29,325 nt of DNA from the IMG/VR virus record IMGVR_UViG_3300008107_000271, positions 1-29,325 of that record, one strand, 5' to 3'. Below, in pieces: positions 216 to 21,861 of this stretch. The translations under genes and the position numbers were made by a program. Below the pieces are notes generated by a model, which did no database searches, was not told the DNA's origin, and worked only from the letters and a program-made list of their open reading frames with translations. This DNA is from a virus. The first letter of the stretch is position 1, and each line of letters begins with the position of its first letter.

Positions 216-1697
216 ATGGCATTGAGCAACAAGCATCCAGAGTACAGCACCTTCCTCGAGGATTGGTTACTCATGCGCGATTGCTATCGCGGTGAGCGGG
301 TCATAAAAGACAAAGGGCAGATATACCTTCCAGCCACCATTGGGATGCAGTCGGACGGGATGAACGTCGGGCAGGTGGGGTATATGGCTTATGAGGCGTA
401 CAAACAAAGAGCGCTCTTCCATGATTATGTGAAGGAAGCGGTGCAGTCAATGATCGGGATGATGCATTGTAAGCCACCGATCATCAAATTGCCGGCGGCC
501 ATGGAGCCAATGCGAGAACGGGCAACGGTCGAAGGCGATTCGCTTGTAAACTTGCTGCGTTTTATCAACGAAGAGCAGCTGATTACTGGCCGGGTAGGGA
601 TTATGCTCGACTTGCCGTCTAATCCAAGGGAAGGTAAAGCGATGCCGTATTTTGCCCGGTACAGGGCGGAAACGATCATCAACTGGGATGATGGGGCTAA
701 CGAAGAACTGACGCTACCGAAGCTGAATCTTGTTGTGTTGGACGAAAGTGCGTATGAGCGCAGCGATGATTTTACATGGACGTACAAGAACAAATGGCGA
801 GTGCTTATGTTGGGTGCCTTGAACCCCAACGAAGCAACCGGAATGTACAGCACAGGTGAATTCAGGGATGATAAGGCAAATCTTGGCAATTTGACTGGCG
901 AAACCATGATCCGGCCGAGCATCGCCGGCAATGAGTTGGATGAGATTCCGTTCGTGTTCATAAACAGCAAGGACCTTGTGACGGGTGTTGATGACCCCCC
1001 TTTGATCGGCCTAGCGAACATTGCGTTGGCTATCTACCGTGGGGAGGCTGATTACCGGCAGAATTTATTCATGCAGGGGCAAGATACCCTTGTGGTAGCT
1101 GGCTCGGCCGACGAGACTTTCCGCCTCGGGGCAGGAGCAACAATCCTTCTGCCGCAAGGCGGGGAGGCGAAGTACATCGGCGTAACTGCCGTTGGTCTGC
1201 CCGAACAGCGGCTTGCGCTGGAAAACGACAAAATGTCTGCCAGCACGAAGTCCGGCCAGATGATAGACACTCGCTCGAAGGAGCGGGAGAGCGGCGACGC
1301 CCTGAAAACTCGGATTGGTGCCCAGACGGCTACGCTGAACCGGATTGCCCTGACGGGTGCTGCCGGCCTTGAGCAGCTGCTGAAAACGGCGGCGAAGTGG
1401 CTCGGTGCCAATCCTGAGGAAGTCTCTGTTCGTCCGAACCTCGACTTCGCTGACGAGAAACTCATCAGCCGCAGCCTTGTTGAACTGGTTACTGCGAAAA
1501 ACATGGGTGCGCCTCTCTCCCGTGAATCTCTCCACAACCTGATGCGGGACAAAGGGTTGACGTACATGGAATTTGAGGAGGAGTTGAATAAGATCGAGGA
1601 AGAAGAACCGATTGGCATGTTGAACGGGGTAATGAATAATCCTTCTAATAACCCGCCTGACAACGTACCCGACCCAGAAGATAATCCAGATGCCTAG
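216..1697 (+). CDS. Portal protein (DUF4055 family)
   Basis: A 493-aa protein that forms the dodecameric ring at the capsid vertex through which DNA enters and leaves. The N-terminus (roughly residues 1-100, with HPEYSTFLEDW, RDCYRGERVIKDKG and YLP) and the middle (IPFVFINSKD, PPLIGLANIALAIYRGEADY at about 245-285) match the DUF4055 portal-like family found in siphoviruses and podoviruses. The C-terminus is acidic and Asn/Pro-rich, probably disordered. The ATG at 216 is preceded by AGGAAGG at 201-207. The stop overlaps the next gene by 8 nt, and terminase lies immediately upstream, which is the normal order. Family recognition is from memory of conserved patterns, not a search. Confidence 0.85.
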   Translation: MALSNKHPEYSTFLEDWLLMRDCYRGERVIKDKGQIYLPATIGMQSDGMNVGQVGYMAYEAYKQRALFHDYVKEAVQSMIGMMHCKPPIIKLPAAMEPMRERATVEGDSLVNLLRFINEEQLITGRVGIMLDLPSNPREGKAMPYFARYRAETIINWDDGANEELTLPKLNLVVLDESAYERSDDFTWTYKNKWRVLMLGALNPNEATGMYSTGEFRDDKANLGNLTGETMIRPSIAGNELDEIPFVFINSKDLVTGVDDPPLIGLANIALAIYRGEADYRQNLFMQGQDTLVVAGSADETFRLGAGATILLPQGGEAKYIGVTAVGLPEQRLALENDKMSASTKSGQMIDTRSKERESGDALKTRIGAQTATLNRIALTGAAGLEQLLKTAAKWLGANPEEVSVRPNLDFADEKLISRSLVELVTAKNMGAPLSRESLHNLMRDKGLTYMEFEEELNKIEEEEPIGMLNGVMNNPSNNPPDNVPDPEDNPDA

Positions 1698-5085: not shown

Positions 5086-5604
5086 ATGGCAAAAGGTTTA
5101 CCTCGTTCTAAAAATCGCGGATCAAAACAATTGGATGATATCCTTAAACAAACGCTGCGTATCCGTGGTCAAGCCATTACTGTGGATGGGTTGACGGGTA
5201 TTGGTTTTGGAAGCTCAACTCTTGGTGGTCTGCCTGAAGGTAACATCTTGTTCTTTGGTGCTGTTGCTTACGTAACAATAAGAACAGCTGCTGGTGGTAT
5301 TATCGCCACGTTCACTGGTGCTTACTCTCTGGGCACTACGGCGACTGCCGATTCTACGTTGTCCGCTACTGAAATTAACTTGGTGCCGCAAACTACCCTT
5401 GCTGCTGCTACTGCTGGTGTTTCTCCCCGTACTCGTGGAACTAGTGGTGCGACGGAAAGCGGTGTAATACTTAACAACACCACGAACACTTTGCGGGTGT
5501 TCTTGAACTTGTTAATTGACGATGCTAGTATTTCAGCTAACGCTCAGGCTTGTACGATTGATGCGGATGTAGTACTAAGCTACACAATGATGCTAGATAA
5601 CTAA
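5086..5604 (+). CDS. Small head protein, possible capsid decoration protein
   Basis: A 172-aa protein read from the ATG at 5086, which has GGAG at 5075-5078. An upstream in-frame TTG at 5059 lies in the terminator and is not used. The first 40 residues are basic (GLPRSKNRGSKQLDDILKQ). The rest is rich in Gly, Ala, Thr and beta-prone segments (GNILFFGAVAYVTI, INLVPQTTLAAATAGV), ending in a beta-rich part with LRVFLNLLIDD. Position after the capsid gene and the all-beta composition suggest a decoration or cement protein on the capsid surface. I do not recognise a named family, so this is an inference. Confidence 0.55.
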   Translation: MAKGLPRSKNRGSKQLDDILKQTLRIRGQAITVDGLTGIGFGSSTLGGLPEGNILFFGAVAYVTIRTAAGGIIATFTGAYSLGTTATADSTLSATEINLVPQTTLAAATAGVSPRTRGTSGATESGVILNNTTNTLRVFLNLLIDDASISANAQACTIDADVVLSYTMMLDN

Positions 5605-5615
5605 GGGGTAACAAA

Positions 5616-6197
5616 ATGAGTAACATTGTACGTGCTTTGAGACAATTAGACACTACCAATGACGAACATTGGACTAGTGAAGGCTTGCCGCGACTGGATA
5701 TTGTCACCAGCTTGACCAAACAAAAAATTGTTACTCGTTCTGATGTTAATGCGGCTGCGCCTTACTTCACTCGTGAAAACCCTCTGTTTGAACTTGAGGA
5801 CGCAACTGGCGAACTGACGAAAGCAGCAGACGAAGAAGTTCAGCCCGAAGAAATTGATGAAACTCCTGATTCGACTTTGTCTGTTCTTGAGCAACAACTC
5901 GCAGAAGCTGATAAGCAATTGGCAATTGCTGAGGCTGCGTTACAAAAAGCCTTGAAAGTAAAACAAGAGGCCGATGCAGCTAAAGACGAACTTTTGGTAA
6001 AACGTGCCAAAAATTTCAACCAATATGACAATCAAATTGCCATTATGGAATTTTTGGAAAGCCAAAAACGTCTTCGTGAACGTAGGGCGGCTACCCTGAA
6101 TCCGATTGCCCCACAAAGTCCAAAGTCTGTTCTTGATCAATCACTGGCTTTAAGAGCCAAACCAAAACGCCCAGGGGTGAAGAAGCCTGGGGGCTAA
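5616..6197 (+). CDS. Head-region protein with FluMu-like N-terminal domain and coiled coil
   Basis: A 193-aa protein. Residues 5-52 (LRQLDTTNDEHWTSEGLPRL, then TRSDVNAAAPYFTRENP) match a short domain known from Mu-like prophages (HI1506-like): Leu-Asp..Asn-Asp..Trp-Thr..Gly-x-Pro, then an Arg-x-Asp/Glu-Val segment. Residues about 85-150 are a long Ala/Glu/Lys/Gln coiled coil, and the end is basic and Pro/Gly-rich (RPGVKKPGG). The gene sits between capsid and neck genes, 11 nt after its neighbour. It is probably a structural or assembly protein. Function is unknown. Confidence 0.6.
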   Translation: MSNIVRALRQLDTTNDEHWTSEGLPRLDIVTSLTKQKIVTRSDVNAAAPYFTRENPLFELEDATGELTKAADEEVQPEEIDETPDSTLSVLEQQLAEADKQLAIAEAALQKALKVKQEADAAKDELLVKRAKNFNQYDNQIAIMEFLESQKRLRERRAATLNPIAPQSPKSVLDQSLALRAKPKRPGVKKPGG

Positions 6198-9925: not shown

Positions 9926-10340
9926 TTTTTCAAGACGCATCCGGCGGCGCGCAGCCGATATTGAACGGAATGTGAACCGCACGGTGCGCCAAGTTGCCCT
10001 CGTTGCGGATAGGGAACTCGTGCTCGCTACCCCAGTAGATACGGGGCGTGCTCGCTCGAACTGGTTTGTTAACCTAGGAGTGCCCAACAGGTCGGTGTCC
10101 GAACCCTATTTCCCTGGGGAGAAAGGCAGTACCGCCTCTTCCAACAGCCAAGCAGCAATTGATCAAGCAGCTGAAGCTATTTCTAGACGCCAGATAGGAC
10201 AGGACATTTACATTTCCAATAACTTGGACTATATTGGCAGTCTAAACGACGGCTCATCTGCACAGGCTCCAGCGCAATTTGTTGAAGCTGCCGTACAGCG
10301 GGCAGTTAATGTTGTGAAAGGTGCTCAGGTTGTAAGATAA
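9909..10340 (+). CDS. Tail-completion protein, HK97 gp10-like
   Basis: A 143-aa basic protein. Residues 1-35 are Arg-rich and helical (FSRRIRRRAADIERNVN), followed by LATPVDTGRARSNWFVN near residues 40-55. The 'PVDTGR.R..W' motif is the hallmark of the HK97-gp10-like / minor tail completion family. The C-terminus has the usual Asn-Asn-Leu-x-Tyr (ISNNLDYIGSLNDGSSAQA) and FVEAAVQRA segments. The protein joins tail to neck. Its location after the tail chaperones, rather than before the tail terminator, is less common. It overlaps GT by 17 nt and shares TAATG with the tape measure start. Confidence 0.8.
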   Translation: MPSLGDFSRRIRRRAADIERNVNRTVRQVALVADRELVLATPVDTGRARSNWFVNLGVPNRSVSEPYFPGEKGSTASSNSQAAIDQAAEAISRRQIGQDIYISNNLDYIGSLNDGSSAQAPAQFVEAAVQRAVNVVKGAQVVR

Positions 10341-13015
10341 TGGCCACAGAACGCATTGATATTGTTGTTTCTGAATCCGGTACGCGAACTGTTAGGCGTA
10401 ACTTGGAAGGGCTTGGCCAAACGGCTACTGCGACTGAAAAATCTTTCAACTCTTTAAAAGCTGTTTTGGCAAGTGTTGGTGCTGCTTTCGGTGTTCGAGA
10501 AGTTATTCAATTCGCTGATTCTTACACAAATCTTCAAAATAGAATAAAAACAGTAACTCAAAACACTGCCCAGTTAAAAGCTGTTACAAAACAGTTGCTT
10601 GACGTTTCTAACGAAACTCGTCAATCCTTCAGAGGTACTACTGAATTATATGTTAGGCTTGCAACATCTTCAAAAAATTTAGGACTGAGTCAAAAAGAAT
10701 TATTTGACTTTACTACCAGTTTGAATCAAGCAGTTGCTGTTTCTGGTGCGACTTCAAGAGAAGCTGAAAACGCAATTGTTCAATTCAGCCAAGGTATTGC
10801 CGCAGGTGCATTGCGGGGTGATGAACTACGTTCTGTCCTTGAGCAATTGCCTGTTGTGGCAGATGTTATCGCACAAAAGCTAGGTGTTACTCGAGGTGAA
10901 TTGAAGAAGTTAGGTGAATCTGGAGCAATTTCGACGGGTATTATCATTGAGGCATTTAAAGACGCTCGTGAAGAATTAGCCGATAAATTTGGAAAAAGTG
11001 TACCAAAGATTGGAGATGCTTTTACTAAATTAAGTAACAACGCTTTGTTTCTTTTTGGTGAATTTGATAAGGGTATTGGGATAAGCAGAACTCTTTCTGA
11101 AGTAATAAACACCCTGAGTGAAAATTTAGAAACACTTGGAAGGGTTGCAATTGCAACAGGGTTAGCACTTTCCGTTAACTTGACTCAACGAGGCCTCATT
11201 GCCGCTGTAGGTGGCGTTCGGGCATTGAGTGTAGCAATCCGCGCAAACCCTCTGGGCATTCTGGCAACAGCTGTTGTGGCAGTTAGTGCACTCCTTGTTT
11301 CTTTTTCTGATAAGATAAAACTTTCTGGAGAAGGTTTCACGACATTGAAAGATTTCGGTCTTGCCGCCTGGGAACAAATTCGTGAAGGTTTAGGAAGACT
11401 AGGTGAAAACTTTTCAAGGGTTTTTTCCGGTATTGGTGACTTTGCACGATCAATTTTTGGTGATATAAGTTTTTCTTTTCTTGATGTTTTGAAAGGCATT
11501 GCGATTGGCGCCGATAGGCTTACTGGAATTTTTGTTGGTGTTTTAGAAGGTCTTAAAGCCGGATTCATAGGATTGTTTGGACTGCTTGACAGCTTTTTCA
11601 CTAAAATAATCAACGCTGTGATCACCAAGGTTGAGGCTGGTGTAAACGCAGTCATTCGCAGTTTGAACAAAGTTTCTGATTATCTTGGTACTGGAAAAAT
11701 CGATGAAGTCATTCTTGGTAGATTGCAAGGTACTGCCAGCAATACTTCAGAGAATCTTGGCCAACTCGTCAAAGACGGATTTTTAAAAGGTTTTGATGGG
11801 CAAAACTCTGTGCAAAACGCCCTAGAAACTACCTTGAACAGAGCCTCAGATATTGCAAAACAGCGTATTCAAGAGCAAGCCGACCTAGAAAAAAAGTTAA
11901 GGGAAGAACAAGACAAATTCAGTGTTAAACCAGAAGCTGCTCAAACTACTTCTCTTCAACCAACGCAGGGTGGTAATAATGGACCATCGTTTGACCAACT
12001 TCTCGGGCAGTTGCAGCAGGAAGGCCAGCTGTTGCAGTTGAATAACAGAGAACGGGAAGTGCGCTACAATTTATTGAGCCTTGAGTCCCAACTCAATAGG
12101 CAGCTTACCCCAGAGGAGGCTGCTCGTGCGCAGCAGCAGCTGGAAGCTAACCAAGCCTTGGGCGACCAGGCAAGGCTCTACGACGAGATAAATGCACCTC
12201 GTGAAGACTACAAGCAAGGCATAGAGGCTTTAAATGTGCTGTTGGAAGATGGCCGCATAAGCCTTGAGGATTACAACAGCAAGCTGCAAGATATCCGCAT
12301 TTCCTACTTGGAAACAAAAACAGATCTTGAATCCGGCGTTGAACGGGCTTTTGCTAAAGTCGCCAGAGACGCTGGGGACGCTGCTACTCAAATTGAAAGT
12401 GTTATCACCAACGCATTTGGCAAAGCTGAAGACGCTTTTGTTGAATTCGTGAAAACCGGCAAGCTGAGTTTTAAAGGTCTTGTTGACGGCATCATTGAAG
12501 ATTTAACACGCCTTGCATTTAAGCAAGCCCTTGTTAGTGCCGCTGCTTCTGCTTTTGGTAGTAGCGCTGACGCTGTTGGGGGAGGAGGTGGTGGAGGAGG
12601 CGGGGGTGGTGGTTTTGGCGACATCTTTGGCTCTATCTTCGGCAGTAGTGGTGGAGCCTCTTCTGGGAGCGCAGGAGCATTAAAGAGCGCACCTTCCCCA
12701 GGGGGTATTCAGTCCTACCAGTATGCTGATGCAGCTTCCTCCTCTGGGGGTTTTGCCTCGCTCTTCGGATTTGCTAACGGGGGGGAGTTTCAAGTTGGTG
12801 GTACTGGCGGGACGGACAGCCAGCTGGTTGCTTTCCGGGCAAGTCCCAATGAAACTGTGAAGGTAACAAAACCAGGGCAAGAAGGCGGGAGTGGTGGGGA
12901 TACGATCATTATCAACATCAATACTACAGATGCTGATTCTTTTCAGCGCTCTAGTGGGCAAGTAATGAGCCAATTCGCTCAGAACTTGGCTCGGACGAAG
13001 AAGAGGTACACATAA
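10340..13015 (+). CDS. Tape measure protein
   Basis: An 891-aa protein that sets tail length and is ejected during infection. Residues about 60-235 form the conserved tape-measure domain (YTNLQNRIKTVTQN, LYVRLATSSKNLGLSQ, FSQGIAAGALRGDELRSVLE, LGVTRGELKKLGE). Hydrophobic stretches at about 265-320 are likely to insert into membrane. A central coiled region (QQEGQLLQLNNREREVRYN) leads to a lambda gpH-like C-terminal domain near residues 680-740 (VFVEFVKTGKLSFKGLVDGI type pattern). A poly-Gly run follows near residue 750. At the usual ~0.15 nm per residue the tail would be about 130 nm. Codon use becomes more GC-rich after about 11,990. Confidence 0.9.
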   Translation: MATERIDIVVSESGTRTVRRNLEGLGQTATATEKSFNSLKAVLASVGAAFGVREVIQFADSYTNLQNRIKTVTQNTAQLKAVTKQLLDVSNETRQSFRGTTELYVRLATSSKNLGLSQKELFDFTTSLNQAVAVSGATSREAENAIVQFSQGIAAGALRGDELRSVLEQLPVVADVIAQKLGVTRGELKKLGESGAISTGIIIEAFKDAREELADKFGKSVPKIGDAFTKLSNNALFLFGEFDKGIGISRTLSEVINTLSENLETLGRVAIATGLALSVNLTQRGLIAAVGGVRALSVAIRANPLGILATAVVAVSALLVSFSDKIKLSGEGFTTLKDFGLAAWEQIREGLGRLGENFSRVFSGIGDFARSIFGDISFSFLDVLKGIAIGADRLTGIFVGVLEGLKAGFIGLFGLLDSFFTKIINAVITKVEAGVNAVIRSLNKVSDYLGTGKIDEVILGRLQGTASNTSENLGQLVKDGFLKGFDGQNSVQNALETTLNRASDIAKQRIQEQADLEKKLREEQDKFSVKPEAAQTTSLQPTQGGNNGPSFDQLLGQLQQEGQLLQLNNREREVRYNLLSLESQLNRQLTPEEAARAQQQLEANQALGDQARLYDEINAPREDYKQGIEALNVLLEDGRISLEDYNSKLQDIRISYLETKTDLESGVERAFAKVARDAGDAATQIESVITNAFGKAEDAFVEFVKTGKLSFKGLVDGIIEDLTRLAFKQALVSAAASAFGSSADAVGGGGGGGGGGGGFGDIFGSIFGSSGGASSGSAGALKSAPSPGGIQSYQYADAASSSGGFASLFGFANGGEFQVGGTGGTDSQLVAFRASPNETVKVTKPGQEGGSGGDTIIININTTDADSFQRSSGQVMSQFAQNLARTKKRYT

Positions 13016-13016
13016 A

Positions 13017-13616
13017 ATGGCATTTCACGATATTCGCTTTCCCGATGAAATAAGCTATGGGGCATCTGGTGGTCCAGAGTTTCAAACCTCAATTGTAATG
13101 GTTAAGTCAGGGCAAGAAAGCAGGAACCAAAACTGGTCTCAGTCTAGAATCAAATGGGACGTCAGTACGGCTGTTAGGGATCGTTCAGACCTGAACCAAC
13201 TTATTGCGTTTTTCCGCGCTCGGGAAGGCAGGGCGCACGGCTTCAGGTTTAAGGATTGGACGGATTTCACTGGCACCCAACAAAACATTGGGACAGGTAC
13301 TGGTGTACAAACTACCTTCCAACTTACAAAAACCTACAATGATGGATTGATAACAAAAGTAAGGAACATTACCAAGCCAGTAACAGGAACTGTCCGCATC
13401 TATCTTAACGGTGTTGAGCAGTTTTCAGGATTTACTGTTGGGGTTACTACCGGCATTGTTACATTTACAGTTGCGCCGGGTGCTGGTGTTGCTGTAACCG
13501 CGACCTATGAATTTGATATTCCGGCACGCTTCGATACCGACCAATTAAAAGTCAACATACAAGGTTACGAAGCCTTCATCGGTGACGCCATAAACATTGT
13601 GGAGATAAGAGAGTGA
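13017..13616 (+). CDS. Distal tail protein, DUF2460 family
   Basis: A 199-aa protein. The N-terminus (FHDIRFPDEISYGASGGPEF), then NQNWSQSRIKWDVS and IAFFRAREGRAHGFRFKDW, is the DUF2460 signature. In gene transfer agents and lambda-like phages this protein is the distal tail ring linking the tube to the hub. A middle beta segment (TVRIYLNGVEQFSGF) carries the typical insertion, and the end, YEAFIGDAINIVEIRE, fits the family. It starts 1 nt after the tape measure stop and its stop overlaps the next start as GTGA. It begins the DUF2460, DUF2163, NlpC, hub order of GTA-like tail tips. Confidence 0.9.
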   Translation: MAFHDIRFPDEISYGASGGPEFQTSIVMVKSGQESRNQNWSQSRIKWDVSTAVRDRSDLNQLIAFFRAREGRAHGFRFKDWTDFTGTQQNIGTGTGVQTTFQLTKTYNDGLITKVRNITKPVTGTVRIYLNGVEQFSGFTVGVTTGIVTFTVAPGAGVAVTATYEFDIPARFDTDQLKVNIQGYEAFIGDAINIVEIRE

Positions 13617-14476
13617 CCCTAAGCATTCCCTCAGCAATACAAACTGCCCTTGATAGTGGCTTTACTACCTTTTGCACGTTAATTCGGATTGTTCGTACCG
13701 ATACTGTGGAGTTTTGCTTCACTGATCTTGACATTGACGTAGTTTTTGAGACGAAGACGTATAAATCAAAGGGGGGGTTCAACGCCTCTGCGGTCGAGTC
13801 CTCTTCTGGGCTTTCAGTTGATAACCTAGACTTTGATGCCGTCATAGACGATGTTACAATCACGGTAGCTGATTTAAAACAAGGGTTGTTCAATAATGCA
13901 GCCATTGAAGTTTTGTTGGTTGATTATAAAAATTTAGCAACCGGCAATAAAGTGCTACTCAAGACTGGTACTCTTGGGGATGTTACTGTTCGGGACAATG
14001 GCTCTTACTACGCTGAGGTGCGTGGTATGAACAACCGCCTCCAAACAAGGATTGGCCAAGTTTATACCCCACTTTGTAATGCTCGGCAGCTGGGAGATGC
14101 CCGCTGCAAGTTTTCTATGGTTGGTTCAACTTTTGTAACAACAGTTGCTTCGGTTATTGACAATAGGACTTTCACCCACACTACTTCGGTTCAGGCAACA
14201 GATTATTTCAATTTTGGTGTTGTTGATTGGCTTGCTGGTTCAAGCAATAACGGTGCCAGCATGGAGGTTAAATCCTACGTGAACAGCCTTGGTGTTGGCA
14301 CCATCACTTTGCAGCTACCTATGGCAAAAAACATTATCGTTGGTGATTCTTTTAGGGCAAAAAGAGGTTGCGATAGGAAATTCCTTACTTGCAAAAACAC
14401 ATTCAACAATGCAGTTAATTTTCGGGGCTACCCAGACCTCCCTGGGCTAGATGAGATGTTAAAGTCTGGGGCATGA
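13613..14476 (+). CDS. Tail tip protein, DUF2163 / BR0599-like
   Basis: A 287-aa protein starting at GTG 13613, within the GTGA overlap. Visible features are FCFTDLDIDVVFETKTYKSK near residue 35, GFNASAVESSSGLSVDNLDF, and VYTPLCNARQLGDARCKF near residue 155, a Cys-containing stretch. The end has FRAKRGCDRKFLTCKNTFNN and FRGYPDLPG. These four conserved Cys residues and the 'C....F.N..NFRG.P..PG' end are typical of the DUF2163 plus BR0599 C-terminal domains. GTA structural work places the related protein in the baseplate between distal tail protein and hub, where Cys residues may bind a metal. This one has all four. Confidence 0.88.
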   Translation: MTLSIPSAIQTALDSGFTTFCTLIRIVRTDTVEFCFTDLDIDVVFETKTYKSKGGFNASAVESSSGLSVDNLDFDAVIDDVTITVADLKQGLFNNAAIEVLLVDYKNLATGNKVLLKTGTLGDVTVRDNGSYYAEVRGMNNRLQTRIGQVYTPLCNARQLGDARCKFSMVGSTFVTTVASVIDNRTFTHTTSVQATDYFNFGVVDWLAGSSNNGASMEVKSYVNSLGVGTITLQLPMAKNIIVGDSFRAKRGCDRKFLTCKNTFNNAVNFRGYPDLPGLDEMLKSGA

Positions 14477-14477
14477 A

Positions 14478-14924
14478 ATGCAACTTGAACGAGATGAAAT
14501 TGTGCGGGTGGCCAGGAGTTGGATTGATACCCCCTACCACCACCAAGCTGCGCTGAAAGGCGTCGGCTGCGATTGCATTGGGTTGCTCGTAGGGGTTTGG
14601 AAGGAATTGATTGGACAATTACCTGTTGAACCTCCCGTTTATTCCCCTCAATGGCACCTACATCAAAAAGAAAGCCAGTTGATAAAGGTGTTGAAGGAAT
14701 GGTACGGCTTTGTTGAAATAACGGCCACCTACCCTCCTGCCGGCAGCGTCCTTTGCATGGGGCTTGAACGTGGTCCAGCCCACCATGCCGGTATTTCTAC
14801 GGGCAACGGCACCTTTGTTCATTCTTATTCATTATCGAAAAAAGTTGTTGAGGTTACTCTTGACCCATCTTGGAAAAGGCGCGTCCATGCAATCCTAGAA
14901 TATCCTGAGGTGGTCGGTGGCTAG
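14478..14924 (+). CDS. Tail-associated NlpC/P60 peptidase
   Basis: A 148-aa cysteine peptidase domain, expected to cut peptide stems of peptidoglycan at entry. The catalytic Cys is Cys33 in GCDCIGLLVG, His103 (AHHAGI) is the probable catalytic His, and His115 in the TFVHSY segment can be the third polar residue. The N-terminus RDEIVRVARSWIDTPYHHQ is characteristic of the phage NlpC family found in tail tips. The gene follows DUF2163 with a 1-nt gap and overlaps the next gene by 8 nt. All active-site residues are present, so an active enzyme is expected. Confidence 0.9.
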   Translation: MQLERDEIVRVARSWIDTPYHHQAALKGVGCDCIGLLVGVWKELIGQLPVEPPVYSPQWHLHQKESQLIKVLKEWYGFVEITATYPPAGSVLCMGLERGPAHHAGISTGNGTFVHSYSLSKKVVEVTLDPSWKRRVHAILEYPEVVGG

Positions 14925-15549
14925 GCTCGCCCTTGCCGTCGCTGGGGCTGCCATCGGCGCTGCCGTTGGTGGACCAGTTGGTGCGCGCATTGGTTTTATT
15001 GCTGGTTCTTATTTGGGAGGCGTCCTTTTTCCTCCAGATGGACCGCCTGATCAAGTAAATGCTGGACCAAGAATAAGTGACACAAGGGTGCAAACATCGG
15101 CATACGGGCAATATTTACCCGTTGTCTATGGTCGTGTAAGGCTCTCAGGAAACATCATATGGGCAAGCCCAGTAAGGGAGGTTATACAGGAGTCTTCTCA
15201 GGACGTTGGTGGTGGGAAAGGTGGCGGCAGTAGCAGTTCAATCACCTCGAGAACATATCTCTACTACAGGTCTTTTGCGGTGGCACTTTGTATTGGACCA
15301 GCTGTTGCGATCCATAAAATATGGGCAAACACAGAAGTGATCTACGACCTTGCTGCAGGGACATCTGCTTATGAAAATGTTCGTTATCTTGGAACTGAAA
15401 CTCAAGTTGCAGATTCGATCATGGAATCTTTTGAAGGTGTTGGTAATGTACCAGGCTACAGAGGGTTAGTGTATGTTGTGTTTGACGACATGCTTATCTC
15501 AAACTTCAGCAATGCAATACCATCACTCAATTTTGAAGTAGAGGTATAA
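14917..15549 (+). CDS. Tail hub N-terminal domain protein, copy 1
   Basis: A 210-aa protein from GTG 14917. It matches only the first domain of GTA/siphovirus hub proteins: a Gly/Ala-rich hydrophobic start (GAAIGAAVGGPVGARIGF), TSAYGQYLPVVYGRVRLSG, IIWASPVRE, a Gly/Ser loop, YLYYRSFAVALCIGP, and EGVGNVPGYRGLVYVVFDD. In related phages these patterns open a hub of 1000 or more residues. Here the protein stops after about 200. The sequence and the neighbour suggest a split hub rather than a damaged one, because the stop falls at the end of the domain and the next gene begins 1 nt later. Confidence 0.75.
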   Translation: MARLALAVAGAAIGAAVGGPVGARIGFIAGSYLGGVLFPPDGPPDQVNAGPRISDTRVQTSAYGQYLPVVYGRVRLSGNIIWASPVREVIQESSQDVGGGKGGGSSSSITSRTYLYYRSFAVALCIGPAVAIHKIWANTEVIYDLAAGTSAYENVRYLGTETQVADSIMESFEGVGNVPGYRGLVYVVFDDMLISNFSNAIPSLNFEVEV

Positions 15550-15550
15550 G

Positions 15551-17215
15551 ATGGCAGTCCTCGCTCTCGGGCTTGCTGGTGCCGGTATCGGCTCTACTGT
15601 TGGTATGGCTCCAATGGGGTTCTTGCTCGGTACTGCCGTGGCCAATCTACTGTTCCCGGGCAACGAAGGGGGTAACTCTGCAAAACCACAAGATGGGAGG
15701 TTGCGGCTCAATGATAATCTCCTGCAGACATCTTCCTACGGAGCAGTTATCCCTTTGGGGTATGGGCTTTACCGCGCAGCAGGAAACGTCATATGGTCTT
15801 CAGGTGTTGAAGAAGCAATTGAGACGATTACTATCGGGACTATTTCAACGGGTAAAGGCGGCGCGGCGGGAGCGCTCGCAGGTGGTAGTTCAACTCAGGC
15901 TTCACCAACAAGAGAGCGTAAATTCTTAAAAGCCAGCATCGCAATTGCTTTTGCAGAAATTCCCCAACACCGTCTTGAAGACAATGTTTTTTCTACAACT
16001 CAAGAATCTCAAGAAGATGGTGATACCGTCAACATAACTGAACGAAAAAGCTACGTCGGTATAAGAAGAATTTGGCTCAACAATTTTTTAGTGAGGGACT
16101 GGAGGTCAGATCAATTAACACCTCCAGATGATCTAACAATCGAAGAATATTTGGGTGACGAAAGCCAAATGGTCAGTGGAACAATAGAAGGGTTTGAAGG
16201 TGCAGGGAACGTCCCAGCCTATCGCAACACCCTGTACGTTGTTATTCCTGATTTAGAATTGACGGCTTTTGGGAATGCATTACCTGCTGCCAGCGCTGAA
16301 CTGTACGAAAGGGCTGACCGGATTGATAACCTAGAAGAAGGGGTTGAAGGCTTAGCATTAAGCCCAGACCAAAAATTCCTTTGGGTAACTTCCCACACAA
16401 AGCGAGTAATACAGAAGGTTGATGTTACCTCCCTCAGTGTTGTAGCACGCCCAGGGAGGGACACTCAAGCCTTTGGGGAATATCTGGGTTTATTGCCCCC
16501 ACACCCCTGGAGGTGTGCTACAAGCCCAGACGGGCAGTATGTATGGGTTGTTCATAAAGGAGACAAAAAACTTACCCGGGTGAGTACTGCGAACAACACT
16601 TGGGTATCTTACAATGTTGATAAAAAGTATGCCATGGATGTTACTGTTGACAGCAGTAACAATGTGTGGGTTGCTTATCCTTTCTACAACATGGTCACCA
16701 AATATAATTCAAGCGGCGTAAAACAATTTGATGTATCTGTTACCGATGCTCCTTGGACTGTTGGGTATGATTCAGCTTATGACGCTGTATGGGTTGGTGG
16801 TAGCAAAAATGTTCATAGAATTTCCGTCGCCAGCGGCACGCTCGTTGCTTCTATTAACACTGGCCGATATTTCCACAGCGACCATGCTTTTGGCACTAGG
16901 AACAGCGATTTATGGACTTCCTCTACGGGAAATGATGTAGCTACACTAATTGATCGAAACAACAACACCTACCGACGGGCAAGGAACACACCTACTTACC
17001 CTATTGGTGCTGACTGCAATCCGTTGGACACAATTGGATCGATTTACATTGCTTGTTTTTCAGGGAATAGGTTACGGGCTTTTAGTTTTCAAGCACGTGC
17101 CCACTTCAACGCAGGAACAATCGCCTTCCCTGGGCAATGTATTGCGATGCCCAATGGGAAGTGCTTTGTTACCAACACAAGACTCGGAATTGTACAACAA
17201 ATGGATTTCAGATAA
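15551..17215 (+). CDS. Hub N-terminal domain copy 2 fused to a beta-propeller
   Basis: A 554-aa protein. Residues 1-255 repeat the upstream protein's layout: Gly-rich start, TSSYGAVIPLGYGLYRAAG, VIWSSGVEEAI, then EGFEGAGNVPAYRNTLYVVI and FGNALPAASAEL. Residues about 262-554 contain seven repeats of a blade-like pattern (for example LSPDQKFLWVTSH, TSPDGQYVWVVHKGD, DSSNNVWVAYPF, DSAYDAVWVGG, RNSDLWTSS, IGSIYIACF, NGKCFVTN). This is the signature of a YVTN/NHL/Vgb-type seven-bladed propeller, commonly a binding platform or a lyase. The propeller could bind a surface glycan or position the next enzyme. The exact propeller family is not settled. Confidence 0.65.
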   Translation: MAVLALGLAGAGIGSTVGMAPMGFLLGTAVANLLFPGNEGGNSAKPQDGRLRLNDNLLQTSSYGAVIPLGYGLYRAAGNVIWSSGVEEAIETITIGTISTGKGGAAGALAGGSSTQASPTRERKFLKASIAIAFAEIPQHRLEDNVFSTTQESQEDGDTVNITERKSYVGIRRIWLNNFLVRDWRSDQLTPPDDLTIEEYLGDESQMVSGTIEGFEGAGNVPAYRNTLYVVIPDLELTAFGNALPAASAELYERADRIDNLEEGVEGLALSPDQKFLWVTSHTKRVIQKVDVTSLSVVARPGRDTQAFGEYLGLLPPHPWRCATSPDGQYVWVVHKGDKKLTRVSTANNTWVSYNVDKKYAMDVTVDSSNNVWVAYPFYNMVTKYNSSGVKQFDVSVTDAPWTVGYDSAYDAVWVGGSKNVHRISVASGTLVASINTGRYFHSDHAFGTRNSDLWTSSTGNDVATLIDRNNNTYRRARNTPTYPIGADCNPLDTIGSIYIACFSGNRLRAFSFQARAHFNAGTIAFPGQCIAMPNGKCFVTNTRLGIVQQMDFR

Positions 17216-18603
17216 TGGCTGGCGTAGCAGAAGCGTATTTTGGTGCAGAAGCAATTCAAGGGATAGCCTCTCTTGATAGAGCAGCCTTGTTCTTAGAGGG
17301 TAATGATGAATTTTTGAATTTCTACGATACTCAAAGAAAACGAGTTCAGAAATTTGCAGATTCCTATTTGCAAGATGCGGCAGAACCTGTTGTCACGATG
17401 ATCTCTGCCGGTTCGACGACAACTACACCAGCCGTGGCTGCGACTCGTCGCGGATTCCAAGATTTTCGCCGGATGCAAGTTTTGGTTCAAGGTTGGAAAA
17501 CTTTCAACAACAACGACTACCGTGATCATGCAATGCAGATGATATTGGATTGGGCTGACACAAATATACCAACAGGACACCCAATTAACCAGACGCACTT
17601 TGAGGGACTGCATTATGCCCTCAAAGACCTCGCACCCAATGGAACCCCTGGGCAATTCACAACAACTGACTATAACACTCGGGTAAAACCTTGGCTGGAA
17701 GCCATACGGGACGTAACTGTCGCTTGGGCATTCCCTCCTGAACCCGGCGGCGGCACTTTGCTGTATGGGAACCACTATGCTCACCACTACATGCAGCTGT
17801 ATATGTGTTACCGTTCGTTAGGGGATACAGCATCTGCTTCAGCAATGCTGACAACAGTAGATACTTTTGCTACTGAAAATTTCCCGTTCGGCAATCCAGC
17901 TATTACTTACCCATTGACGCACACAATAACTGGCCTCAATCAAGCAAGTAAGTGGTTTGAGATTAATGCCGACTACACAACAAGATACACAACAGGAATT
18001 ACTTTCAACATAATTGGTTCAACCGGAAATAATGGCACTTATACAGTAGCTTCCAATGCCACATTTATTGGTGGCAAAACTCGGATTGTAGTAACAGGAA
18101 CAATTCCCAGCGCTGTTGTTGACGGCTCTATCCAAGAAATTTTTCAAACTCCTCCCCACCAAATGCCCAGAGCAGCCACGGACGCTGGAGAAAGCATTGA
18201 CTTTATTCGCCGAGATGCTTTTCATTACCATACTTATGATCTTCAACCTTGGTTAACATTGGCATTGGCAGAAGGGACAAACAGGTACGAAACAAAACTG
18301 ACTCAAGCATGGGATTGGTGGTGGAATAAAGTATTAGACGTTTCAGACCTGCACACTGAATTTACCAATAGTTCAGATGATTTTGACCAACTGCGTTGGG
18401 AAGGTTCTCGTTCTGAGTATCTACAGCCTGGCACTTTTTGGATGCCTGACGAAGCAGCAAGAACAATATTTTTGTGGTATTTGTATAAATTGACCTTGAA
18501 TCCCAGTTACCCTGTTAATGATGCAATTTTAGCTATGGGAATCCGGTCTGATAGAATATCAACAGAGTGGCCATATTGGTTTCGTTTTATTTTGGGGGTA
18601 TAA
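17215..18603 (+). CDS. Polysaccharide-lyase-like tail protein (alginate lyase-like)
   Basis: A 462-aa protein starting at the TAATG overlap at 17215, not at the upstream in-frame ATG 17137, which would extend it into the previous gene. It has an alpha/alpha-toroid character (many aromatic and His-rich helices). Two segments recall alginate lyase-type enzymes: YGNHYAHHYMQLYMCYRSLG (Asn186, His187, His190, His191) and RRDAFHYHTYDLQPWLTLA (Arg332, His337, Tyr338, His339, Tyr341). Residues about 240-311 are a beta-rich insert ending NGTYTV...GGKTRIVVTG. It probably digests host capsule or exopolysaccharide from the tail tip. Fold and substrate are inferred; the catalytic set is not proven. Confidence 0.5.
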   Translation: MAGVAEAYFGAEAIQGIASLDRAALFLEGNDEFLNFYDTQRKRVQKFADSYLQDAAEPVVTMISAGSTTTTPAVAATRRGFQDFRRMQVLVQGWKTFNNNDYRDHAMQMILDWADTNIPTGHPINQTHFEGLHYALKDLAPNGTPGQFTTTDYNTRVKPWLEAIRDVTVAWAFPPEPGGGTLLYGNHYAHHYMQLYMCYRSLGDTASASAMLTTVDTFATENFPFGNPAITYPLTHTITGLNQASKWFEINADYTTRYTTGITFNIIGSTGNNGTYTVASNATFIGGKTRIVVTGTIPSAVVDGSIQEIFQTPPHQMPRAATDAGESIDFIRRDAFHYHTYDLQPWLTLALAEGTNRYETKLTQAWDWWWNKVLDVSDLHTEFTNSSDDFDQLRWEGSRSEYLQPGTFWMPDEAARTIFLWYLYKLTLNPSYPVNDAILAMGIRSDRISTEWPYWFRFILGV

Positions 18604-20235
18604 GTGGCATCGCTACAAAATGTTATCTTAGACATCTGCCAAAGAGCAGGATACCAAGTCAGTGAAATTGATGTTTCCCTGCTAAGTGGTACTGTTGACG
18701 GTTTTGTGCTTTCTAACCGCTCTTCTGCGCGCTCGATGATTGAAGAATTGCAGAAGGCTTTTCTTTTTGAAGGGATAGAAAGTAACGGAAAGATTAAATT
18801 CGTCCCATTAAACCAATCCTCTTCAGTAACAGTTTCCGTTGATGAACTGGTGGCCACAGGCCAAGGCGATAATCCCAAATTCCTAGAAATAGGTTACAGC
18901 GACGACAATGACCTACCCAAAACAATTTCAATAAATTATGTTGCCAAGACAGCAGACTATCAGCAAGGAACCCAAGAAGCAATCCGACAAATTGCGGACA
19001 CAGGTGAGGCAGAAACTATTACCATCGCGGTGGTAATGGATAACGACACAGCACGCCAGCTTGCGGAAAAAATACTGTATCTGCGTTGGACAAGACGGAT
19101 CACTTATAATTTTGCCCTCCCAGTAAAATATCTCCGCATTGAGCCAGCTGACGTGATCAGTATAACTGATGGGAGTTTCACCCATGTTATCCGGATTTTG
19201 AAGAAGCAACTCTCTGGACAAACAATCTTGTTCGAAGGGGAGTCTGCAGATTCTGCTACCTATACTCAACCAATAACTGGTGGTGACATTACCGTACCCG
19301 GCGGTGTTGTTTTCGACCCAGGTAACACAACACCTCAATACCTAGACATACCATTGCTCAGGGAGGTTGATGACAATTCTGGTTTCTACATCGGGGTTGG
19401 CAGGTCAGTTGCCAGCTGGAGGGGTGCGCAGATATACCGTTCTGCAGATAACGTCAGCTATAACATATTGACAGCAATGTCCGTCCCTACAATTATGGGT
19501 GTTGCCCTCACTGCCCTGCCGACTGGACCACATTGGTATATGGACAGAGTTAACGCAGTTGACGTGCAGCTGACCTATGCAGACCAATTGCTTTCTACGA
19601 CTGAGGCCAATCTTTTGAACTCAGTCAACTCTGCCATTCTCGGAAACGAAGTAATACAGTTTCAAACTGCTACCCTGATAGGAGTCCGCACCTACCGCCT
19701 CTCTGGGCTATATCGTGGCCGCCTTGGTACTGATTGGGCAAAAGGATCTCACGCAATAAATGAACGCTTTGTCATGTTAATTCCAGGAGGTAACTTCGAA
19801 CGGATTCTTGACCCCACGAGTTTGTTGAATGCCTCCCGTTACTACAAGCCTGTTTCTATCGGCCAAGACATCAGCATCGTAACTGCTGGGACTTTCACCA
19901 ATACGGGTGTTGGCTTAAAACCTTATTCACCAGCCCATTTCAAAGCAGTGAAGCAGACCAACGGAGATTTTATTTTAAGCTGGATTCGCAGGACTCGGTA
20001 CAACGGCAGCTGGCTAAGTTTTTCGGACGTACCTCTGAACGAAGAACGGGAAGAGTACACCCTGAACATCTATAATGGACCAACAATTGTCAGAACAACG
20101 ATTGTTTCTTCTCCTACATTCACCTATACTGCTGCAATGCAAATTACTGATTTTGGTAGCGTGCAATCAACCATAACCTCACAAGTGGCTCAGAATAGTG
20201 CTACCATTGGCCCAGGTTATTATGCTGCAATTTAG
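18604..20235 (+). CDS. Tail hub C-terminal half (phage-tail_3 domain)
   Basis: A 543-aa protein from GTG 18604, directly after the previous stop. The start QNVILDICQRAGYQVSEIDV, then VDGFVLSNRSSARSMIEELQ, LEIGYSDDNDLPKTISINYV and RWTRRITYNFALPVKYLRIE is the phage-tail_3 region of lambda J and GTA hub proteins. The rest (SWRGAQIYRSADNVSYNIL, TYRLSGLYRGRLGTD) matches the hub's C-terminal domains. A stand-alone protein lacking the N-terminal hub domain is unusual; that domain occurs in two upstream genes, so the hub is likely assembled from separate polypeptides. It sits at the tail tip. Confidence 0.8.
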   Translation: MASLQNVILDICQRAGYQVSEIDVSLLSGTVDGFVLSNRSSARSMIEELQKAFLFEGIESNGKIKFVPLNQSSSVTVSVDELVATGQGDNPKFLEIGYSDDNDLPKTISINYVAKTADYQQGTQEAIRQIADTGEAETITIAVVMDNDTARQLAEKILYLRWTRRITYNFALPVKYLRIEPADVISITDGSFTHVIRILKKQLSGQTILFEGESADSATYTQPITGGDITVPGGVVFDPGNTTPQYLDIPLLREVDDNSGFYIGVGRSVASWRGAQIYRSADNVSYNILTAMSVPTIMGVALTALPTGPHWYMDRVNAVDVQLTYADQLLSTTEANLLNSVNSAILGNEVIQFQTATLIGVRTYRLSGLYRGRLGTDWAKGSHAINERFVMLIPGGNFERILDPTSLLNASRYYKPVSIGQDISIVTAGTFTNTGVGLKPYSPAHFKAVKQTNGDFILSWIRRTRYNGSWLSFSDVPLNEEREEYTLNIYNGPTIVRTTIVSSPTFTYTAAMQITDFGSVQSTITSQVAQNSATIGPGYYAAI

Positions 20236-20244
20236 GAGTCTGTA

Positions 20245-21861
20245 ATGGCTAACACTGTTCGCAACGCTTTCCCTCTTTTGGAGGTTGCTCAAGCGCAAAA
20301 AGAAACAACCCACAATGAAGCGTTGAGGATAATGGATATCCTCAACAATATGTTGATAAAAGATCGGACTTTGGCAACACCGCCGGGTTCACCTGCTAAT
20401 GGAGATACCTATCTTGTTGCAGCTTCTGCTACTGGTGTTTGGGCAGGGCAAGATGGGAAGATTGCATTCTTCTATGACGGCTGGAGTTTTATTACAGCTT
20501 ACGAAGGCATGCAAGGTTACGTTGATAACGAGGAAAGACAAATAATCTTTTCCGACGGTTTTTGGCGAGAACTCCCTGGCTCTTGGGCAGCAGGTATCAG
20601 TGCTTCCTCTTCAGCTGATCAAGTCAACCTTTTTGCAGTAGATGTTGGCTCCATCAAGCCTGTAAATACCGGCACCGATGGGGCAATTGTTGTTTTGCCG
20701 CAGCTATCTACAATTGACCCTAGAAGTATGTTGAGTGTTAAGAAAACAAACTCCGACGACAACTCTACTCTTGTCATTCATGGTTTTCCCTTAAACCTGT
20801 TGACTTTTTCTAATGATCAATCGAACGCTGCTTGGGCAAAAACTTTTACCACTATTTCTACAAACGTCGGTCTTGACCCTACTGGAGCAACAACCCTAGA
20901 TAAAATTCAAGAAGACAACACGACAAACTTGCACGAAATTGCCCAGGTGTATGCCAAGCCTTTTGGTATTACTCGGCTGGTGGCTTCATTTGTTGTTCAG
21001 GCGGTAGAGCGTAACACAGTGATGTTGATGATTGACCAAGGTGGTTCAGCCAACAGGGCTGAAATGCGCGTTGCTCTTTCAACAAACACGGTTAGTAACA
21101 CAGCAAGCGCTGGGAATGCCACGTATGTCAGCGGAACTTGCACAGACTTACCGAACAGCAACAAGTTGATAACGATTGTTGTTGACGTAACGGCAGCGGC
21201 GCACAACTGGTCTGTCCGGCTGCGACTTTTCAACGGATCCTCTACCTATTTGGGTGTTACTGGCCAAGGAGTATTTGCAGGTAGGGCGCAGCTTGGTTTT
21301 TACGCACCTCTGCCATCCTATACCGATACTACAACAACTAATGCCATTGAAACGATAGATGGTTCTACAACACGGGAAATACGCACCCAAGGGGGGGCAC
21401 TTACTGTTTTCAGAGGGACAACAGAATGGGCTATTGACAGGCCAGAGTCTGACGTTGACTCTGGGACGTGGACGCCTTCTGTTAGCGGGTCAACAACTTC
21501 AGGGACTCAAACCTATGGCACAAGGGTAGGGCATTGGACGAGGCGTGGTCGATGGATAGATTTCATCTGCTCAGTGAACGTCAGCACGCTAGATGCTGCC
21601 ACGGCAGGGAACCTTCGCATCACAGGACTCCCATTCGCCGCTTTCAACGTCGCTGGGCTTCATCAACCTGTTGCTATTAACATCCGCAGCAACATGACGC
21701 TAACTGCTGGCTATACAATGTTCTCTGCTTACATGACGAACAACAGTGCCATTATTAACTTGGCGCAGATGGGTAGTAACGTAGCCCAGGCGTTGCTGCA
21801 GGCAACTGCGGCGGCCAGTGGTTTAACCATAGACATTCAAGGGACAATACGGACAAACTGA
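20245..21861 (+). CDS. Tail fibre / receptor-binding protein with DUF2793 and carbohydrate-binding modules
   Basis: A 538-aa protein with AGGAG ahead of the ATG. Residues 1-105 are DUF2793-like (FPLLEVAQAQKETTHNEAL, GDTYLVAASATGVWAGQDG), which anchors fibre-type proteins to the tail tip. Residues about 188-365 form a beta-sandwich carbohydrate-binding module typical of phage fibres (NLLTFSNDQSNAAWAKTF, then QVYAKPFGITRLVASFVV, LRLFNGSSTYLGVTGQG). Residues about 400-538 are the C-terminal tip module (SGTWTPSVSGSTTSGTQTYG, VGHWTRRGRWIDFI). Three modules in one protein imply a receptor-binding fibre. The sugar recognised is unknown. Confidence 0.75.
   Translation: MANTVRNAFPLLEVAQAQKETTHNEALRIMDILNNMLIKDRTLATPPGSPANGDTYLVAASATGVWAGQDGKIAFFYDGWSFITAYEGMQGYVDNEERQIIFSDGFWRELPGSWAAGISASSSADQVNLFAVDVGSIKPVNTGTDGAIVVLPQLSTIDPRSMLSVKKTNSDDNSTLVIHGFPLNLLTFSNDQSNAAWAKTFTTISTNVGLDPTGATTLDKIQEDNTTNLHEIAQVYAKPFGITRLVASFVVQAVERNTVMLMIDQGGSANRAEMRVALSTNTVSNTASAGNATYVSGTCTDLPNSNKLITIVVDVTAAAHNWSVRLRLFNGSSTYLGVTGQGVFAGRAQLGFYAPLPSYTDTTTTNAIETIDGSTTREIRTQGGALTVFRGTTEWAIDRPESDVDSGTWTPSVSGSTTSGTQTYGTRVGHWTRRGRWIDFICSVNVSTLDAATAGNLRITGLPFAAFNVAGLHQPVAINIRSNMTLTAGYTMFSAYMTNNSAIINLAQMGSNVAQALLQATAAASGLTIDIQGTIRTN

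Follow-up and report, generated by a model that had tools for sequence, protein, structure and literature searches.

The central tail-tip protein of siphophages of the gene transfer agent (GTA) type, the megatron, has been described for the Rhodobacter capsulatus GTA (RcGTA; Rcc01698, structures 6tba and 6teh) and for R4C (8gtc). In both cases, a single chain contains one N-terminal (N) domain, a peripheral domain (a TIM barrel in RcGTA), a central domain and a fibre-binding domain, and the gene follows those for the distal tail protein, the hub and an NlpC peptidase. For RcGTA, the excerpted text of PMC7296036 assigns residues 1-46 to an iris/penetration domain, 47-229 to an adhesin-like, 230-744 to the peripheral, 745-984 to the central and 985-1304 to the fibre-binding domain. 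The DNA analyzed here is the virus record IMGVR_UViG_3300008107_000271, positions 1-29,325, and this whole 29,325-base stretch is called the window. Its gene order and its N, central and fibre-binding domains resemble those of RcGTA and R4C. However, four abutting genes at 14917-20235 jointly match what is one protein elsewhere, the RcGTA-type megatron, and the single chain, N domain and peripheral domain of those two are replaced by four chains, two N domains (N1 and N2), a beta-propeller and a lyase homologue (the toroid).

Split megatrons with one N domain and tandem whole megatrons are already known in named phages. Xanthomonas phage Pfeifenkraut and Stenotrophomonas phage Sonora resemble the window in having a three-gene split, in which N and C-terminal (C) parts are separate and another gene lies between them. 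They differ in having only one N domain, a phrog_4176 tail fibre as the middle gene and a C protein that begins with a phrog_4950 segment, and no propeller or lyase match was obtained at their split loci. Caulobacter phage CcrColossus (gp122/gp123) also has more than one megatron N domain in tandem, but there both megatrons are complete, a C half being present in each. Baseplate propellers are candidate receptor binders according to the excerpted text of PMC4901313, which reports this for gp45 of S. aureus phage phi11 and suggests it for gp131C of PhiKZ. In contrast to the window, the phi11 propeller has five blades and sits on a separate trimeric receptor-binding protein, and that excerpt describes neither propeller as being carried by a megatron N domain. 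Neither a propeller-bearing split megatron nor a tail protein of the AlgL type was found in the excerpts of open-licence literature that were searched.

We propose, with a probability of roughly 0.68, that the locus encodes a multi-chain megatron that would mount a receptor-binding propeller and a polyuronate lyase. An earlier note on this DNA had claimed that the N domain is present twice and that the Phage-tail_3 half is a separate gene, and both claims were borne out. N1 and the first ~250 residues of the N2-propeller protein were 30% identical in BLASTP (E 1e-27). Both matched PHROG 4271 from its position 1 (N1 over 1-203, E 7e-72; N2 over 1-239, E 6e-40), and their joint profile matched residues 1-201 of 6tba_8A (E 2e-30) and the start of 8gtc_M (E 1.5e-29). 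Both thus descend from one and the same megatron domain and are not unrelated folds. The C half matched Phage-tail_3 (E 1.3e-33) and Rcc01698_C (E 1.4e-26) in Pfam, positions 751-1303 of PHROG 4271, and residues 766-1296 of 6tba_8A (E 8e-36). Because N1 and N2 match residues 1-201, C matches residues 766-1296, and the published peripheral domain spans 230-744, both breaks lie at most ~30 residues from the ends of the peripheral domain. The penetration and adhesin-like domains of an RcGTA-type megatron are thus present twice and its central and fibre-binding half is present, but the single polypeptide is replaced by four open reading frames (ORFs) with conserved breaks. The peripheral TIM barrel (GTA_TIM, PF13547) gave no Pfam match in the four window proteins and was also missing from 6 of the 8 relatives scanned. 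The term "hub" used for these genes in the earlier note had to be changed to megatron, as the real hub is the DUF2163 protein encoded from 13613.

To collect relatives, IMG/VR was searched in two protein scans and then more widely with a diverse alignment of the C half, of which the best 80 of 528 confirmed loci were used. Labels of the form Lnnn denote loci or contigs collected in the scans of viral and genome contigs. The two protein scans yielded five contigs that share both the genes and their order with the window at 63-83% amino-acid identity, one of them (L005) a fragment; two further scans for distant relatives led to these five contigs again. Some records were identical where compared (L003 and L004, L001 and L005, L113 and L030). 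The wider scan added 77 loci (L026-L102, near-duplicates kept). N and C were in one ORF in 63 of these, including L063, which is broken inside the C half. The remaining 14 comprised six loci with N2-propeller, toroid and C (L026-L031; N1 was seen in five, as the L027 contig begins inside N2), three with a single N-propeller, toroid and C (L076, L079, L097), the two-gene breaks L046, L060 and L068, and the truncated contigs L048 and L070. A scan with the toroid added L110, L111, L113, L116 and L118, all with N1 and N2; N1 of L110 is in two pieces, and its contig ends in the toroid. Three-gene loci with a single N domain also occur in the Alphaproteobacteria metagenome-assembled genomes (MAGs) L120 and L121, with a further such locus elsewhere in the L121 genome (L151), which points to Alphaproteobacteria as hosts. 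Altogether, the window shares the four-gene order with L001-L004, L026, L028-L031 and L118, and partly with L005, L110, L111, L113 and L116, contigs that end inside the cluster.

Chance is excluded as an explanation, because the same genes recur in the same order in related contigs. In addition, the ratios of nonsynonymous to synonymous substitution rates (dN/dS) were low in L026/L028-L031, i.e. 0.054-0.080 for N1, 0.062-0.073 for N2-propeller and 0.040-0.095 for the toroid in four pairs, and 0.057-0.082 for C in three pairs. All four genes are under purifying selection in this related lineage. The ratios for L002/L003 were 0.52 (N1), 0.31 (N2-propeller), 0.19 (toroid) and 0.09 (C), but this pair says little on N1, because its dS was only 0.02. 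Synonymous sites were saturated between the window and L001, so no ratio was obtained. Sequencing errors, which the earlier note had named as a possible cause of the breaks, and pseudogene formation are ruled out by the recurring breaks together with the dN/dS values. The central tail-tip protein of GTA-type siphophages can thus be split near domain borders and still be kept. An apparently independent two-gene break of the megatron is present in L060 (5250-8743) and L068 (5431-8752), the sister L082 (5345-8665) having one ORF; near the start of the second gene of L060 there is a weak CBM_5_12 match (E 0.003, under its cut-off). Extra ORFs occur in or just after several clusters. In L026, N2-propeller and toroid are separated by an ORF (5428-5850) that contains a repeated peptide, and small reverse-strand ORFs that look lipoprotein-like, ParE-like and VapBC-like by eye are found in L120 (8204-8575), L125 (1563-1910) and L124 (2972-3711), as if the gene borders were landing sites for passenger genes.

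A seven-repeat propeller had been noticed between the halves, and seven repeat motifs were indeed picked by eye at N2 residues 277, 331, 372, 413, 454, 498 and 538; the confident part of the AlphaFold model (pLDDT >50 almost only at residues 265-437) covers about four blades. With this model, Foldseek returned YVTN, WD40 and Vgb propellers (best E 1.7e-12), which supports the propeller fold. The PDB sequence and fold searches gave designed Pizza propellers, PknD, and again YVTN, WD40 and Vgb propellers, and the propeller of L079 matched NHL (E 4e-9). The virginiamycin B lyase family PF24684 stayed below its cut-off of 50 bits even in the best relative (L028, 48 bits), and the window protein had no match to it in Pfam. 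The propeller, above all its distal part, proved to be the most variable part of the locus between near-identical phages. L002 and L003 share 97-99% DNA identity over the distal tail protein, hub, NlpC, N1, toroid and C genes (97.5% for the toroid), but 80% in the propeller, 93% in the N2 domain and 91.5% in the DUF2793 gene; in 150-base windows at L002 5600-6199 the identity was 57-80%, with gaps in most. Among four phages, only 10-37% of the columns were invariant at residues 401-500 of N2-propeller, and a second variable stretch lies within the N2 domain (residues 81-120). We read this variability as the pattern of a candidate recognition surface. The swaps of the propeller/lyase pair that had been anticipated in related phages were not seen: a propeller-only profile matched 14 ORFs in the 82 viral loci searched, every one beside a toroid, and none among the ORFs of nine named-phage loci. 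Because the propeller of L002/L003 is 80% identical versus 97.5% for the lyase, and no exchange of the pair was observed, specificity probably changes by diversification of the propeller and not by exchange of the enzyme.

The His/Tyr-rich, toroid-like protein of the earlier note turned out to be related to PF05426, with its start at 17215 and not at the longer ORF start 17137. The protein Pfam scan gave E 5.5e-5 (23.2 bits, cut-off 22.2), and 9 of 9 phage members scanned matched the family weakly (best E 1.2e-5, E up to 0.5). A scan of genome contigs with the toroid yielded 24 loci, some within tail modules and others cellular. Eight cellular relatives tested matched PF05426 with E 1e-10 to 4e-35, and comparison of 9 phage with 12 cellular proteins by hhalign gave E 2.5e-52. 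N186, H190, N222, G325, D329, R333, Y338, Y341, E382, D391 and R394 were invariant in all 17 proteins compared (8 phage-type, 9 cellular). We take the Asn, His, Arg and Tyr residues to be the PF05426 active-site pattern, with H190 as the candidate catalytic His. The toroid resembles AlgL-type enzymes of PF05426 in this pattern and in the profile match across the helical domain; it differs in having no evident signal peptide (by eye), an inserted beta domain and a location in a tail operon, and its lyase role is putative. The beta insertion is missing from L026, L028, L031 and the nine cellular relatives aligned. A common origin with the insertion in DUF2163 was considered and dropped, as hhalign gave no signal of it. 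With the toroid model, the leading Foldseek matches mostly covered ~75-100 residues (GH110, ATP synthases, lambda tail tip), all with E >0.01. NCBIfam gave no name for the toroid, and a protein search of named phages yielded one weak match in a Klebsiella phage (E 6e-3).

In four of five cellular contexts (L126, L129, L132, L141), the toroid-family gene lies between two large ORFs on the same strand. In L126 and L141, where Pfam was run on both flanking ORFs, these encode HlyD (plus PilZ in L141) and a family 2 glycosyltransferase (GT2); in L141, genes for a nucleotide-sugar dehydrogenase and GMP-PMI come next, and L132 carries a dehydrogenase. We read these contexts as probable alginate-like exopolysaccharide operons, presumably comparable to the set alg44, algL, alg8, algD and algA. 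The toroid would tie the phage tail to the enzyme family of such operons, which offers a testable guess at the slime barrier that is crossed. In a Bryobacterales MAG (L131 1-2916), a 972-aa ORF has an N part that is PilZ/HlyD-like by eye and ends C-terminally in a toroid-family lyase.

According to the proposed mechanism, the locus would be a multi-chain form of the megatron, a trimeric protein of the baseplate by which the tail of RcGTA-type siphophages is closed. C would dock on the distal tail protein and the DUF2163 hub as in RcGTA and would bear the fibres, and N1 would give the penetration and adhesin-like domains that normally precede the peripheral domain. Together, N1 and C would rebuild a peripheral-less megatron, a form that L056, L084 and L087 encode as a single 763-779 aa chain. 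N2, a modified second copy, would present the propeller at the peripheral position of the RcGTA TIM barrel, and the AlgL-type toroid would bind beside the propeller. During infection, the variable propeller face would recognise a glycan or protein on the host surface, and the lyase would trim an acidic, alginate-like exopolysaccharide. The Gly/Ala-rich hydrophobic N-terminal stretches, which are kept in both N domains (Gly+Ala 44% in N1 and 40% in N2 over 45 residues), may then enter the outer membrane, as proposed for the N-termini of the RcGTA megatron in the excerpted text of PMC7296036. This step is uncertain, because a 2026 preprint, in the part available (PMC13420450), reassigns three channel helices to the tape measure protein. 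In the three-gene relatives, the single N-propeller would have to serve both N jobs. It is conceivable, though doubtful, that N1 and N2 are non-equivalent and alternate round the tail axis in a 3+3 closed ring with six hydrophobic N-terminal segments instead of three. Such a ring would penetrate the outer membrane as a heteromeric apparatus; with the receptor-binding propeller on only one of its subunit types, it would couple receptor binding by N2 directly to pore formation.

The trees were calculated after removal of near-duplicate rows, and fragments under the length filters were left out. The four-gene rows grouped as one clade (SH-aLRT 92) in the tree of the C half, which had 78 dereplicated rows, and this clade fell within a 39-row clade (98), which also contained the three-gene rows and 24 others, i.e. 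23 single ORFs and one two-gene break (L046). Two of these 24, L033 and L069, were scanned with Pfam, and both had a GTA_TIM match, in agreement with the earlier statement that in GTA-type hubs a TIM-barrel domain occupies this interval within one polypeptide. N and C are separated by 9 to 672 aa in single chains, and the intervals of L043, L044, L052, L078 and L086 had no Pfam match at E 0.01. The peripheral slot thus takes very different modules: a TIM barrel, segments without family match, nothing, or a propeller plus a lyase homologue. The earlier idea that propeller and enzyme replace the TIM barrel on separate subunits was correct as to the slot, but the propeller is fused to N2, and only the lyase and C are separate. 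N1 is not needed for the swap, because propeller, lyase and C also occur alongside just one N domain (L076, L079, L097, L120, L121, L151).

Within the N tree, the N1 rows grouped together and so did the N2 rows, in either of the two four-gene lineages (99/96 and 100/99), and an approximately unbiased (AU) test did not reject N1 and N2 together (p 0.71). Compared with N1, N2 has an extra 29-residue insert in the adhesin-like domain. All 9 N2 rows and 4 of the 5 three-gene rows had inserts of 25-29 residues, versus 0 residues in 6 of 6 N1 rows and 0-1 in 64 of 64 other rows; the insert is missing from L121 and, by match length, from L151, despite fusion of their N domain to the propeller. A recent origin of N1 as a copy of N2 is unsupported, N1 lacking the insert and the two forming separate clades. 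In the simplest order of events, propeller and toroid may have entered the slot and the chain was broken, the N domain gained the insert, and an insert-less N1 was added or retained. N1 may stem from a copy of the ancestor of N2 or from another phage. The three-gene and insert-less forms suggest steps toward the split, and as each function is on its own chain, each can be expressed and tested alone.

Several results speak against a multi-chain megatron with a working lyase. The PF05426 family search of the genome gave 19.3 bits, under the cut-off of 22.2, and the PDB sequence match to a polysaccharide lyase of family 5 (PL5) was weak (E 0.04; nearest chain 7fhz). The AlphaFold models were poor (mean pLDDT 51.8 for the toroid and 42.5 for N2-propeller), and the helical part of the low-confidence toroid model had no lyase fold match in Foldseek. 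One cellular relative (L139) lies, by eye, outside an exopolysaccharide operon, and the deep order of N1 and N2 differed between trees, a quick tree joining N2 with the three-gene N (88) and a careful 47-row subset not doing so. Residue 187, the His beside Asn186, is Trp in L026, L028, L031, L121 and some cellular relatives. This last point would suit the view that propeller and toroid are non-catalytic, carbohydrate-binding decorations, the lyase fold serving as a spacer or lectin, a role that the TIM barrel of megatrons may also have; in the available part of PMC13420450, the function of the peripheral TIM domain of RcGTA is described as unknown. However, Asn186, His190, Arg333, Tyr338, Tyr341 and several acidic residues are invariant in the 17 proteins and dN/dS is low, and we regard non-catalytic decorations as improbable.

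Lone phage-type toroids were found on short Alphaproteobacteria MAG contigs without nearby tail genes (L122 2776-4191, L123 1952-3346). The enzyme is thus able to occur independently of a tail, which also counts against a baseplate enzyme. The neighbours in L122 appear topoisomerase-like and RimM-like by eye, and the L123 protein has the beta insertion. The toroid might therefore be a free exopolysaccharide lyase, a passenger gene in a baseplate operon whose product is freed at lysis and clears slime for the progeny, the baseplate consisting only of N1, N2-propeller and C. The extra ORFs within the L120, L125 and L026 clusters fit such passengers, and the cellular relatives are separate proteins. 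Yet the toroid lies between N-propeller and C wherever both flanks are readable (window, L001-L005, L026-L031, L111, L113, L116, L118, L076, L079, L097, L120, L121, L151). Its junctions are mostly overlaps or short gaps (longer after N-propeller in L026 and L120), it fills part of a slot that has an in-chain TIM barrel in relatives, and by eye no signal peptide is obvious at the beginning of the phage protein. A freed passenger enzyme thus appears about as unlikely as the non-catalytic decorations. A further objection is that C shares the toroid frame, with one stop between them, in 14 of the 16 four-gene records, as would be expected if chains such as toroid and C were still joined by stop-codon readthrough or frameshifting. 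But the stop at this junction is TAA, TAG or TGA, varying even among close records, and C is in another frame in L027, L118 and 5 of 5 three-gene records tested. Moreover, the relative frames of N1 and N2 vary between records, and each listed junction of the four genes has a start codon, so that joined chains are very improbable, far more so than either other alternative.

Table 1. Coordinates of the megatron genes, their parts and the adjoining tail genes in the window
Feature	Position	Strand	Evidence
Distal tail protein (DUF2460)	13017..13616	+	Pfam PF09343 E 1.3e-74
True baseplate hub (DUF2163/Gp84_N + BR0599)	13613..14476	+	Pfam PF09931 E 3.5e-44, PF09356 E 7.8e-21
NlpC/P60 tail peptidase	14478..14924	+	Pfam PF00877 E 3e-5
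N1, stand-alone penetration + adhesin-like domain without insert	14917..15549	+	phrog_4271 and 6tba_8A matches
N2-propeller: second N domain (residues 1 to ~255) + seven-repeat beta-propeller (~257-554)	15551..17215	+	
29-residue insert, N2 residues 139-167, only in propeller-bearing N domains	15965..16051	+	Row comparison
Most variable part of the propeller, residues ~401-520	16751..17110	+	Four-phage columns and L002/L003 DNA
AlgL-type (PF05426) toroid, putative polyuronate lyase	17215..18603	+	Pfam, hhalign; start aligned in 6 records compared
Toroid, candidate catalytic Asn186 to His190	17770..17784	+	N186, H190 invariant 17/17
Toroid beta insertion, residues ~235-307	17917..18135	+	Beta strands in low-confidence model
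Toroid, candidate catalytic Arg333 to Tyr341	18211..18237	+	R333, Y338, Y341 invariant 17/17
C: megatron central (Phage-tail_3) + fibre-binding (Rcc01698_C) half, own chain	18604..20235	+	Pfam, 6tba_8A
DUF2793 tail-fibre-like gene after the megatron genes	20245..21861	+	PF10983 E 5.1e-24

The tail module has the order tape measure, DUF2460 distal tail protein, DUF2163 hub, NlpC peptidase, the four megatron genes and the DUF2793 fibre gene. A DNA-level search gave no match to named phages. The portal protein (window 216-1697) shares 55% identity with its counterpart in Pseudomonas phage PaMx25 (Queuovirinae, Nipunavirus). The tail module of PaMx25, the nearest phage by portal, is organised quite differently according to its annotation, which points to a head/tail mosaic. 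The tape measure protein (window 10340-13015) is only 37-47% identical to its counterparts, whereas the neighbouring tail proteins are ~63-83% identical in the same phages.

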